IMG/VR virus record: IMGVR_UViG_3300028177_000003
Location: 1-64,000 of that record
Length of the DNA: 64,000 nt
Origin: a virus
Strand: one strand, 5' to 3'
A model generated the notes under the pieces. That model did not search any database, was not told the origin of the DNA, and worked only from the letters and a program-made list of their open reading frames with translations. How positions within the stretch are numbered: position 1 is the stretch's first letter; each line of letters begins with the position of its first letter. Below are positions 45,859 through 60,129 of this stretch, one piece after another. The position numbers and the translations under genes were made by a program.

Positions 45859-46245
45859 ATGCCCAAGTCTCTCACTGCTTCAGATCGTTCCTCTCTCATC
45901 AAGCTGGCCCACTCCCTGGAGAAGGGGAGCGAGGAGAGGAAGGCGATCCTGGCTGGGCTCAAGAAGCTCGGAGGGGCCGGATCCTACCCTGAGTGGAATA
46001 GCGATCGGGAACGGTGGGACAAACGTGGGTGGAAGCTGGTCTGGGAATCGGAAGACCTTGCGTGGATGCAACGCGGGGTTTTGATCATCTACAACCAGAT
46101 GGGTTGGAGTCCCCGAGTATGGGAATACCACCAGCCGGTGTCTGGGAATGCCCAGGCTGTTAAGATTGTAGAGGACGCTCTTGAAAAGGCCCGGTGGAAT
46201 ACTGAAAAGTTGGATCCCTCGGAGTGGGAACAAGTTCTGTTCTGA
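45859..46245 (+). CDS. Protein with shared N-terminal module, copy 1
   Basis: 128 residues. The first 36 residues (KSLTASDRSSLIKLAHSLEK then GSEERKAILAGLKK) match the start of the gene at 46518 almost exactly, including the ribosome site and leader before the ATG. The rest is different: WDKRGWKLVWESEDLAWMQR, GVLIIYNQMGWS. So the module is attached to two different bodies. Function unknown; it could be a targeting or packaging tag. Confidence 0.6.
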   Translation: MPKSLTASDRSSLIKLAHSLEKGSEERKAILAGLKKLGGAGSYPEWNSDRERWDKRGWKLVWESEDLAWMQRGVLIIYNQMGWSPRVWEYHQPVSGNAQAVKIVEDALEKARWNTEKLDPSEWEQVLF

Positions 46246-46517: not shown

Positions 46518-46910
46518 ATGTCCAAGTCTCTCACTGCCTCAGATCGCTCTGCCCTCATCAAGCTGGCCCACTCCTTGGAGAAGGGCTCGGACGAGAGGAA
46601 GGCGATCCTGGCTGGCTTGAAGAAGGCTTCGTTTGCAGCCACCCGACCCCCTACTTCCGAGGAGATGGAGGACCTTGGACCCAAGGCTCGCCGCGCTCTG
46701 GAAAGCTATCTGGGACGCAACTTCCGGATCACGAACGATCCGCGAAACGCCGATCAGGTTGACTTCGTTGAGGACAACCCCAGGGCTCCCGGCTCCTTCA
46801 AGGAAGATGGGGTGGTGTGGACCTTCGGCAGCGACATGGATTCAGGTAAGAGCGCAGTCCAGGCTGAGTCCAAGGTCGGATACGGCACCTGGTACTTCCT
46901 GGAGCGGTAG
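46518..46910 (+). CDS. Protein with shared N-terminal module, copy 2
   Basis: 130 residues. The N-terminus (KSLTASDRSALIKLAHSLEK, GSDERKAILAGLKK) is the same module as in the gene at 45859. The body differs: ARRALESYLGRNFRITNDP, VDFVEDNPRAPGSFKED. It ends one base before the convergent release factor gene. The DNA of the module and its leader (CCTTCTACGGAGTCTCC) is also nearly identical, so the duplication is recent. Confidence 0.6.
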   Translation: MSKSLTASDRSALIKLAHSLEKGSDERKAILAGLKKASFAATRPPTSEEMEDLGPKARRALESYLGRNFRITNDPRNADQVDFVEDNPRAPGSFKEDGVVWTFGSDMDSGKSAVQAESKVGYGTWYFLER

Positions 46911-46911
46911 T

Positions 46912-47599
46912 CTACGCCCACAAAGCGTCTACACCGCCTCGCAGGTAGCTCTTCGCTGAGGTCTTCTTCCCGGTGACGTGGTCTACGACCTGACCCGCTT
47001 GTAGACGGATTGTGCGACGCTTGTCTGCACGCTGTCCGCTACCCACCTGGCCCTTTCGCTTCTTGTTGTGGGCCTTGCTCCGTTTCTGAGCCTCGGCCTC
47101 CTGCAAACGGATGCGAAGTAGCGTAAGAGCCGACTCCCGGTTCTGGTTCTGGGAGCGCTCCGACTCGACGCGGATCATGATGCCGCTCGGTTTGTGTGTT
47201 AGCTGCACTGCCGAGTCGGTTGTGTTCCGGTGTTGCCCTCCCGCACCCGAGCCCCGACAGGTCTTCACCTCGAGGTCCTTCGAGTGAATACGCACCTCAG
47301 ACTCCGCAGGCTCCTGCAACACAGCCACCGTGATAGTGGAGGTGTGAACACGACCGCGTTTCTCGGTAGGAGGCACCCGTTGCCAGCGGTGCCCTCCGGC
47401 TTCATGTCGAAATGCCCGCGCAGCGTCCTTGCCTGTAACCTTGAAGGCGAGGTAGCCGGGGCGGTCGTCTAAGACCTGGAGAGAGAAGTCAAAGGGACCC
47501 CCGAGCCTCGAACTTGCGGTACACGTTGAACTGCTCGTAGACGAGCTGCTTTGCGTCCTGACCGCCTTCGGCGGCTCGGATTTCGACAATAGTGGTCAT
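46912..47599 (-). CDS. Release factor (RF1-type motifs) expressed by +1 frameshift
   Basis: Two reading frames join to one 228-residue protein. Frame one starts at ATG 47599 (AGGTG upstream), codes for 36 residues (EIRAAEGGQDA is the RF core start) and stops at TGA 47489-47491. Frame two continues as DFSLQVLDDRPGY to 46912. At the joint is CGG GGG TCC CTT TGA C, base for base the layout of the bacterial RF2 site. The body has QRVPPTEKRGRVHTS (PxT motif, RF1-like, residues 76-78) and the catalytic GAGGQ (GGQ at 120-122). The N-terminal domain 1 of RF1/RF2 is missing. Known GGQ proteins release peptides from ribosomes. Confidence 0.85.
47488..47503 (-). promoter_or_regulatory. RF2-type programmed +1 frameshift site
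   Basis: Minus-strand bases CGGGGG (47503-47498), TCC, CTT, TGA, C. In E. coli prfB the site is AGGGGG UAU CUU UGA C. The Shine-Dalgarno-like GGGGG, the three-base spacer, the CUU slip codon and the UGA C context are all kept; only one base of the SD-like hexamer and the spacer codon differ. Ribosomes slipping from CUU to UUU continue with GAC. Confidence 0.85.
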
Positions 47600-47657: not shown

Positions 47658-47840
47658 TTAGTTGTTTTCCTCTGAGTTCGGACCCCCAAGACGCAAAGCC
47701 CTGAAGAGAAGTTCCCAGAGCTCGGCTGGGATAGGTTCCCCTCGGGCAACGCGGCCCAGGACGTAGATCAGAGTCTCTCTACCAGCAGGGAGGTTGAGAT
47801 TCCTCTTCTCAACCCAGTCTGCCACAGAAGAAGCCTGCAT
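47658..47840 (-). CDS. Small hypothetical protein
   Basis: 60 residues from ATG 47838-47840 with GGAGG upstream. Helical: SVADWVEKRNLNLPAGRETL, IPAELWELLFRALRL. No family recognised. It precedes the release factor by 58 bases and probably shares its transcript. Confidence 0.5.
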   Translation of the reverse strand: MQASSVADWVEKRNLNLPAGRETLIYVLGRVARGEPIPAELWELLFRALRLGGPNSEENN

Positions 47841-58316: not shown

Positions 58317-58682
58317 GGGGTCGAAACGGTTTCGACAGGGCAGATAAGGTTTAGCAGGCGTGGCAAGGGATGGACCACCTTACGGTTCGGCAAACACAAA
58401 CGCCAACAACAACAACGCTTTCCGGGCTGCGGCCTGAGAAAGCCCTGGGACTTCGTGAGCCCAGGTGACTGTTAGCAAGAGAGTGACTCACTCAGCTTCC
58501 AGTTGTATTTGACGAGTTCGGCAAGCTCTCGGGGTAGCACCTGACCGGGAGACGGAGCACACCAGGAGACGCTGCTCCAGGGGAAAGATCCTGGGACACG
58601 ATGGTTCTGTGAATGGACCAAGGCTACGAAAGCTGCGACACTACGTTTGTTCTGGACGCGGGTTCGACTCCCGCCGACTCCA
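58317..58682 (+). ncRNA. ssrA: Transfer-messenger RNA
   Basis: 366 bases. The 5' end GGGGTCGAAACGGTTTCGACAG and the 3' end GTTCGACTCCCGCCGACTCCA are the tmRNA acceptor and T-arm signatures; GGGGTCG pairs with CGACTCC in a seven-base acceptor stem with one G-T. The tag frame begins at GCA 58390 and reads ANTNANNNNAFRAAA, then TGA. The run of Asn codons is unusual. The discriminator A at 58682 is followed by TCT, so the CCA end is not encoded and must be added; this genome has a CCA-adding enzyme. tmRNA frees stalled ribosomes and tags their products for breakdown. Confidence 0.95.
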
Positions 58683-59133: not shown

Positions 59134-60129
59134 TCAATCCTCGTATTCCTGCATCGCTTGGATGAGGAGTCCTCTGGCCACAGTATTGAGAGGTTCCGCC
59201 GCCTGGCGAATCTCAGATACAGAAATGGGGAACCGCTTCCGCTTCCGCTCGAAGGTGTGCTCGAAAAAGGGGAGGAAGTTCTGAGCCAAGCTCGTGCCTC
59301 CAGCCACCACGAGGGGGATAGCCCGAGGGAGAGCGAACCGGTCCTTGATGAGAGCGAACTCACGGGCGGTCTGGTCGATGCAGTACTCGATCAGGCTCTT
59401 GTAGTACAGCACCAGAGCCTCCTGCTCTCGACCTTCCGGGTTCAAGAGGTCCAGACCCTGCTCCTTGAGAGAGCACATCCGAGAAGCAGTGGAACCCACG
59501 GCCTTCGCGGCACCCTGGTCAATCCAGTCGCCTCCGCGCCCCACGGAGAAGACCAGACCCTCGATTGCGTTCACGGCGAGGGCCACGTTGCACATTCCAG
59601 AGCCGAAGCTGACGGCCAGACCGGAGAACTGCTCGGCAGCGGTCTCCGCGTAGATGATGGCCATGGCCTCGTTCGCCGGGGTCGCTGTGTACCCGCACTC
59701 CGTCACGATGCGCTCAAAGACTCCACGATGGTACACCGTGTCCCGTTCGGAGTCCACGGGTGCTGCCGGGATGGAGAAGTAGCAGTGCTCTCCCTTGACG
59801 GCGGGCTTCCCCAACAGGTTCTGTACCATGACACCGAGGATCTCCAGAGCGTCCATCTCGCCTGCGGCGATCAAACCCCCGCTCAGAGGACGCCGAGCTT
59901 CCCGCCCGAAGACGTTCGCCATCTCGAGAGCTGCGTCGCCGACGACAATGATGCCCTCCTCCCCGCGATCAATGAAGTTGACCCCAGAGAGCTTGAGCAT
60001 CCGACGAGCTCCTGCGTCCAGGTCCAGGAAGGCGTCCCGAACCCGAGCCGTCTCCACCTGCCCGTCCCCCACTCGCTGAGCGCAGACGATGTTCATCGTC
60101 CCGATGTCGAGGCCTTTTCCCTTGTTCAT
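59134..60129 (-). CDS. Actin-like ATPase (ParM/MreB/Hsp70 fold)
   Basis: 331 residues. Phosphate-1 motif GLDIGTMNIVCAQ (Asp8), phosphate-2 motif AVSFGSGMCNVALA, and adenosine motif LVVAGGTSLAQNF: the layout of actin-type ATPases. FSVGRGGDWIDQGAAKAVGS is the connecting segment also seen in ParM-like proteins. Such proteins form filaments that move or position DNA and are known from plasmids and a few phages. It overlaps the gene upstream by four bases. The partner that would link filament and DNA is not recognised; the upstream gene is one candidate. Confidence 0.8.
   Translation of the reverse strand: MNKGKGLDIGTMNIVCAQRVGDGQVETARVRDAFLDLDAGARRMLKLSGVNFIDRGEEGIIVVGDAALEMANVFGREARRPLSGGLIAAGEMDALEILGVMVQNLLGKPAVKGEHCYFSIPAAPVDSERDTVYHRGVFERIVTECGYTATPANEAMAIIYAETAAEQFSGLAVSFGSGMCNVALAVNAIEGLVFSVGRGGDWIDQGAAKAVGSTASRMCSLKEQGLDLLNPEGREQEALVLYYKSLIEYCIDQTAREFALIKDRFALPRAIPLVVAGGTSLAQNFLPFFEHTFERKRKRFPISVSEIRQAAEPLNTVARGLLIQAMQEYED

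Follow-up and report, generated by a model that had tools for sequence, protein, structure and literature searches.

The locus considered here raises the question of why a release factor resembling RF1 should be encoded behind a frameshift signal of the RF2 type, and of what such a gate would sense. The window, that is, the whole stretch of DNA analysed, comprises positions 1 to 64,000 of IMG/VR record IMGVR_UViG_3300028177_000003, a virus record of 89,529 bases in full. The gene lies on the minus strand, where an ATG (47599-47597) opens MTTIVEIRAAEGGQDAKQLVYEQFNVYRKFEARGSL, followed by a TGA (47491-47489), and the joint reads CGG GGG TCC CTT TGA C. A one-base advance after CTT leads to GAC and to a frame open as far as the TAG at 46914-46912, giving a fused product of 228 residues. 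The E. coli prfB signal is AGG GGG UAU CUU UGA C, where a +1 shift takes place when RF2 is low; by likeness to it, ribosomes are presumed to slip in the window gene family as well. The first-pass annotation had recognized an RF2-type +1 signal here, and this reading holds: there is a CTT-T-stop with a Shine-Dalgarno (SD)-like run three bases ahead of it, and the upstream and downstream open reading frames fit. It had also considered the shift to be required for 192 of the 228 residues, including GGQ, as is indeed the case, with PPT and GGQ both past the joint. The features of the locus, together with a tmRNA gene of the same record, are as follows.

47489..47599, minus strand: leader in frame 0, ATG through CTT (36 codons) and then TGA, encoding the first part of domain 2 (RAAEGGxDAK); homologous to RF1, with third-position substitution bias
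47498..47502, minus strand: SD-like GGGGG, three bases ahead of CTT; from the sequence and the pairing energies of the family
47491..47494, minus strand: slippery CTT-T, formed by the P-site CTT (47494-47492) and the T of TGA; CTT conserved in the family
47489..47491, minus strand: premature stop TGA, followed by C (47488); from the sequence
46912..47490, minus strand: +1-frame body with the remainder of domain 2, domain 3 with GGQ, and domain 4; from the RF1 alignment and domain matches
47365..47373, minus strand: PPT, at the place of the RF1 PxT motif; RF1 QRVPVTE aligned with QRVPPTE
47233..47241, minus strand: GGQ, the peptidyl-tRNA hydrolysis motif; from the sequence, past the joint
58317..58682, plus strand: tmRNA gene (ribosome rescue); from the sequence

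The first issue is which release factor the fused protein represents. It aligns across the joint with solved RF1 structures (residues 3-210, best E 4.9e-47) and contains the Pfam domains PCRF and RF-1. The two prfA models give the highest profile scores (216.7 and 212.7 bits), above prfB (141.4) and prfH (80.3), all of them below the respective cut-offs: 212.7 bits against 423.25 for TIGR00019 (prfA), 141.4 against 370 for TIGR00020 (prfB) and 80.3 against 166.65 for TIGR03072 (PrfH). The match to TIGR00019 begins at profile position 114 and, as had been proposed from the letters alone, domain 1 is missing, since the prfA and prfB matches both begin past it. The claim of an RF1-type recognition motif is likewise borne out by PPT lying opposite RF1 PVT. 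Both RF1 motifs, PxT and GGQ, are present (as PPT and GGQ), and SPF, the recognition motif of RF2, is not; PxT is the stop-codon recognition motif of RF1. Among the members whose loops were compared, most have an RF1-like PxT loop. In four of them (L009, L016, L031 and L158) the loop is shortened and lacks PxT; three of these keep the frameshift and L016 has an in-frame UGA.

In a tree built by a quick method with prfB as outgroup, the 107 rows of the window family form one branch separate from prfA (SH-aLRT 98) and are nearer to prfA than to prfB, with support of only 49 for prfA as a single group and an unsure placement for the prfH row, which is a very long branch. The tree covers the family without L005, L095, L176, L206 and 16 distinct near relatives of the L052 clade, and without most of 45 prfA-like genes. 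The window family thus branches apart from both prfA and prfB.

A first close-relative scan of IMG/VR returned five loci, all of them shifted and one with TAG replacing TGA. The set was then widened by a profile scan (best 80 of 171), a scan for the pattern CTTTRR and two scans with the post-stop parts of unshifted members (one of them covering the best 80 of 206 relatives). Clusters were defined at 90% nucleotide identity, and the records are mostly metagenomic. Of the 412 loci classed, 48 are without a profile match and four have a partial one (L365, L406, L407 and L496), and L152 is unclassable. The matches listed comprise 145 viral clusters including that of the window, of which 76 are shifted, 62 carry an in-frame UGA, six are open and one is unclassed. 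Homologs in one open frame, named in the first-pass annotation as evidence that would speak against the signal, therefore amount to only six of these clusters among the matches listed, a premature stop being present in the other 138 classed. The search that it had proposed, for the slip site among viral GGQ genes, yields the 76 shifted clusters, with TGA at the CTT-T-stop in 56, TAG in 17 and TAA in three (again among the matches listed). The pattern scan demanded CTTTRR and so favours shifted genes; the profile scan alone (best 80 of 171) gives 72 distinct genes, 43 of them shifted, 25 with an in-frame UGA and four open. The six open viral clusters, together with one myxobacterial MAG with open genes, indicate that gating is not essential.

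The tblastn matches in phage records were used only for LR745206 and LR745208; many of the others look like bacterial contigs filed as phage, e.g., an Acinetobacter record with annotated prfA and prfB. Two further observations concern single records. Locus L005 (3001-3635) has, in addition to the conserved shift, another frame break some 150 codons into the gene, reflecting error or decay. In the virus record that holds the UGA-gated release factor L045, two tRNA-like genes, both with a CTA (amber) anticodon, lie side by side (L299, 5852-6052, minus strand).

The frameshift itself was examined in 88 shifted genes, a set without L206 (altered frame) and L095 (same phage as L009); 15 of the 88 come from the CTTTRR scan, and 73, the window's included, from sources without that requirement. 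Among the matches listed, the P-site codon is CTT in all 88, and the gate stop is TGA in 65, TAG in 20 and TAA in three. In all 47 rows where the distance was measured, the CTT lies 29 codons past an RAAEGG-like motif. The 12 bases preceding CTT pair with the anti-SD sequence at a mean of -7.7 kcal/mol across these 88 genes among the matches listed, against -4.39 kcal/mol (sd 0.27) in 200 sets of synonymous controls; at 13 of the 88 sites (among the matches listed) the SD-like pairing is weak or absent. Comparison within 14 pairs of relatives gives 64, 42 and 184 mismatches at codon positions 1, 2 and 3 in frame 0 before the site, and 512, 381 and 1214 in frame +1 after it. This excess at third positions, in frame 0 before and in +1 after, shows that the reading frame switches at the site.

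It could be argued that there is no full-length product at all, the interruption being a sequencing error, the mark of a decayed gene or the sign of a separate internal start. The gene is formally interrupted, L005 has its second frame break, and in the window a +1-frame TTG (47589) lies upstream of the slip site. Such an account is scarcely tenable given coding constraint on both sides of the site and 88 identical slip sites out of 88 among the matches listed, drawn from many assemblies and from isolates. The same slip site is found in the named isolate genomes of Minicystis rosea, Nannocystis and Archangium, and the conservation of site and spacing in relatives, isolates included, excludes chance and sequencing error. 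As for an internal start, only 24 of 101 shifted clusters among the matches listed have an upstream ATG in the open +1 frame; in that same set the upstream +1 frame is open for at least 90 bases in 48, and any +1-frame start (ATG, GTG or TTG) is present upstream in 60.

The unshifted relatives carry the other form of premature stop. Each of the 62 unshifted viral clusters (among the matches listed) has one or two in-frame premature stops, all of them UGA. In L011 and L016 the UGA falls at the very site of the shift, as CTA TGA and CTC TGA within a single frame; in the main unshifted group it falls at the Trp column of RF1 (KLG-UGA-TT beside KGWKV), where the prfA of Spiroplasma also has a UGA. 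In Spiroplasma, UGA encodes Trp. A first reading of the viral group, that UGA had been recoded as Trp there, was rejected, as UGA behaves as an ordinary stop. Across 20 stretches (20 kb each) of eight readthrough-type records, treating UGA as a stop or not alters the coverage by long ORFs by no more than 0.08, up or down, in a comparison made without a known recoded phage as positive control; TGA ends 125 of the 355 long ORFs in these eight records. UGA usage was also sampled in 33 shift-bearing records (the 64-kb window and 32 stretches of 20 kb). Coverage gains of 0.10 and 0.15 without the TGA stop were seen for L287 and L301, where most called genes still end in TGA. UGA being an ordinary stop in the sampled records, the in-frame UGA is better read as a second form of the gate, opened by predicted readthrough, than as an altered code, a reading that draws on eight sampled records. 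No U at position +4 was found after the premature in-frame UGA (0/66 in viral clusters among the matches listed), a base that PMC5289835 associates with reduced readthrough, chiefly for UAA.

Instead of leaky near-cognate reading, the UGA of this group might be decoded as selenocysteine or by a suppressor tRNA of the phage. The uniform use of UGA as premature stop in the 62 viral readthrough clusters (62/62 among the matches listed) would fit this, but in the main group the codon stands at the Trp column of RF1, and the DNA examined, which represents parts of genomes only, yielded no tRNA with a UCA anticodon. Specialized decoding of this kind is thus very improbable, and readthrough of an ordinary stop remains the preferred reading of this group.

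Regarding the carrier of the window gene, PHROGs matches were obtained for four of ten long window proteins scanned (a DNA helicase, an NAD-dependent ligase, a tRNA nucleotidyltransferase and one unknown), while the other six had none. No virion protein was identified among the ten, and the designation of the window record as phage therefore rests on its filing in IMG/VR. No DNA-level relatives were found in named phage records, and a check for anti-phage defence families gave no PADLOC match. Several neighbouring genes deserve mention on their own account. Immediately upstream of the release factor gene, a minus-strand ORF of 60 residues (47658-47840) has a similar counterpart in the same position in L002. 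Two plus-strand ORFs, at 45859-46245 and 46518-46910, begin with ~36 near-identical residues (MPKSLTASDRSSLIKLAHSLEKGSEERKAILAGLKK and MSKSLTASDRSALIKLAHSLEKGSDERKAILAGLKK), after which their sequences part; the second directly adjoins the release factor gene on the opposite strand. Pfam searches gave no match for any of these three ORFs. Further away, a 331-residue protein (59134-60129, minus strand) matches Pfam Volactin (E 1.8e-74) and is presumably actin-like.

The gene had been taken as one of phages, and the virus record of 89,529 bases agrees with this; it is not restricted to phages, since chromosomes of Myxococcota carry it too. A single scan of a GTDB-based genome collection (best 80 of 217 relatives) yielded 28 shifted genes with CTT-T-stop, mostly in Myxococcota (22 with TGA and six with TAG), along with three with an in-frame UGA (L191, L197 and L219), three open copies, all in one myxobacterial MAG, and 45 prfA-like genes, uninterrupted save for a UGA in three from Spiroplasma. 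The shifted chromosomal homologs make up 25 clusters among the matches listed, and their complete or isolate carriers include Minicystis rosea, Nannocystis and Archangium lansinium. The myxobacterial copies look chromosomal, judged from their neighbouring genes: the Minicystis copy has among its neighbours a sigma factor and a GDSL lipase, and the Archangium copy has one with an AHH nuclease domain, four of the seven neighbours tested being without a Pfam match. The six myxobacterial genomes examined also encode an ordinary prfA and an ordinary prfB, the latter above its cut-off and bearing its own CTTTGAC near the start. Two irregular copies were noted in this collection. L206 (Nannocystis pusilla) reads CACCTTGACC at the site, with one T fewer and a further frame break, as a result of gate loss or sequencing error, and L273, beside L267 in a Sandaracinaceae MAG, is a second, partial copy of the third factor ~3 kb from the intact one.

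The absence of domain 1, a trait of PrfH according to PMC1586002, invites the idea of a PrfH-like rescue factor, in which the gate would open on ribosome stalling and the product would release peptides without a normal stop codon. The shortened recognition loops of L009, L016, L031 and L158 point the same way. A tmRNA match above the Rfam cut-off is present in 12 of 44 shift-bearing virus records (two of the matches span <120 bases and may be tRNAs), and in G022, the record of the TAA-gated L030, an RtcB gene (169037-170176) lies ~4 kb from the release factor gene on the same strand. RtcB is found, however, in only five of these 44 records, and in the four other than G022 it is >30 kb away; in the window's record no RtcB was found, and hence no rtcB operon like that of PrfH. 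Moreover, Minicystis and Nannocystis encode further, separate release factors next to RtcB (termed PrfH-like on account of this position rather than of a PrfH-model score), so that the third factor is not the RtcB-linked one of these genomes. Most members compared keep the PxT loop, and the prfH score of the window protein is below its cut-off. On the grounds of that score, the distribution of RtcB and the separate RtcB-linked genes, a PrfH/RtcB operon was rejected; the window family is not the RtcB-linked PrfH, and a rescue role of this kind is decidedly unlikely. The tmRNA of the window possibly has a related function, separate from the gate.

The most probable reading, in our judgement, is that of a third bacterial-type class-I release factor, RF1-like and made of domains 2-4, whose synthesis is gated by non-termination at a premature stop, usually UGA. 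In this model, fast release at the UGA ~36 codons in would yield a 36-residue peptide. Under slow release, GGGGG would pair with the anti-SD sequence, the P-site tRNA-Leu would slip from CUU to UUU, and the resulting +1 shift would allow the GGQ factor to be made. The factor would then ease the shortage of termination, closing a negative loop that would be direct where the gate codon is readable by the factor and indirect otherwise. Both the sensing of release activity and the feedback by the gated factor are thus conjectural parts of the model. Its PPT, at the place of PxT, marks the factor as RF1-type, for which UAA and UAG are the expected stops. Reading of these two would make a UAG gate a means of self-regulation and a UGA gate a report on RF2, and the common UGA gate would give a factor restricted to UAA and UAG no direct feedback on itself. 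The earlier proposal that the window gene reports on the host's RF2 can accordingly hold for the UGA-gated members only, relatives having UAG or UAA gates at the same site; in those members, an RF1-type factor would be expected to report RF2 activity.

The usage of stop codons is supportive only of this gate logic. In the following tests the genes come from viral and cell clusters taken together, the background is from phages only, and relatedness is ignored throughout. TAA, a stop that both host factors read, is rare at the gate, with 3/88 among the matches listed against 190/757 phage gene stops (Fisher p 3e-7), a scarcity expected if a single release factor should read the gate. UGA is the gene end in 3/65 readthrough-type clusters (among the matches listed) against 125/355 ORFs (p 5e-8), and in 26/75 UGA-shift clusters (among the matches listed) against 297/495 (p 5e-5). 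UGA-gated genes tend toward UAA ends instead, which would be useful for a product made during poor UGA termination. No clear avoidance of TAG is seen at the ends of TAG-gated genes (2/23 among the matches listed against 47/218, p 0.18).

The quick tree requires a minimum of 18 changes in the gate codon, 13 in the virus/cell character and eight in the shift label, three of the latter being forced by starred branches. With that many changes of gate codon, a generic brake fits as well as a specific sensor. The premature stop would in that case sense nothing and simply keep the output of a release factor that may be toxic constantly low; each of the three stops occurs as gate, shift and in-frame UGA are both present in the family, and overproduction of RF2 is toxic in B. 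subtilis, as stated in PMC12421855. A brake of constant strength is nevertheless unlikely, as it accounts neither for the rarity of TAA at the gate nor for the tendency of UGA-gated genes not to end in UGA, and poor initiation of translation would achieve the same more simply than the SD-like stimulator that has been kept.

Within the model of a gate that senses termination, it is possible, if doubtful, that the factor is omnipotent, reading UAA, UAG and UGA despite its RF1-like PxT, so that all gate forms would be direct self-regulation. The gate codons of prfB mirror the reading of RF2, and a gate that ranges over UGA, UAG and UAA would by the same logic argue for a factor that reads all three. 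When loops were compared by eye, no link was seen between PxT loop and gate codon: loops with TGA gates include PPN, PPG, PPS and short ones, and those with TAG gates include PPN, SPL and PRN. An omnipotent factor would represent a self-limiting backup terminator that works without domain 1, that large phages have in common with myxobacteria and whose gate takes either of two forms, +1 slippage or UGA readthrough, one replaceable by the other. Under the favoured reading of an RF1-like third factor, the stop gate looks like a built-in gauge of the cell's translation termination, which suggests that some large phages monitor and supplement the termination of their host.

In the open-access literature, no recognizable description was found of a release factor, phage-encoded or RF1-type, that is gated in this way, in agreement with the first-pass annotation, which knew of none; subscription papers and preprints were outside the scope of the search. 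Release factors of Lak phages and others are tied to recoded genetic codes. The window gene shares with these the encoding of a class-I release factor by a phage, and differs from them in that the records sampled here use standard stops. Like PrfH/RFH, the protein begins at domain 2, without domain 1; unlike PrfH, for which PMC1586002 gives an SXY motif, it has PxT, and its record has no RtcB. The likeness to prfA lies in the best profile match, in PxT and GGQ and in the closer position on the tree, whereas the lack of domain 1 and the gate set the family apart. Indeed, none of the 35 non-Spiroplasma prfA-like clusters among the matches listed is interrupted, and bacterial prfA has no programmed shift according to PMC12421855. 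With prfB, whose frameshift mechanism is treated in the same work (PMC12421855), the family shares the SD-like run, the three-base spacer, the CTT-T-stop, often a C at +4, and a +1 shift required for the GGQ protein. Unlike prfB, the protein is RF1-like, and the site is in domain 2, not near the start of the gene ahead of domain 1. Prince and colleagues found, across the 8,164 bacterial genomes with the prfB motif, TGA in 98.6%, TAA in 1.4% and no TAG (PMC12421855), while in the present family the gate is TAG in 20/88 and TAA in 3/88 (among the matches listed), and many relatives have an in-frame UGA. The programmed frameshift of a release factor gene has for decades been the story of prfB, with RF1 as the exception. 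An RF1-like factor with the same signal at a different position in the protein implies that the device arose or moved separately, and a gate codon that ranges over all three stops, unlike that of prfB, makes the logic of the feedback, self-reading versus reporting on another factor, open to test.
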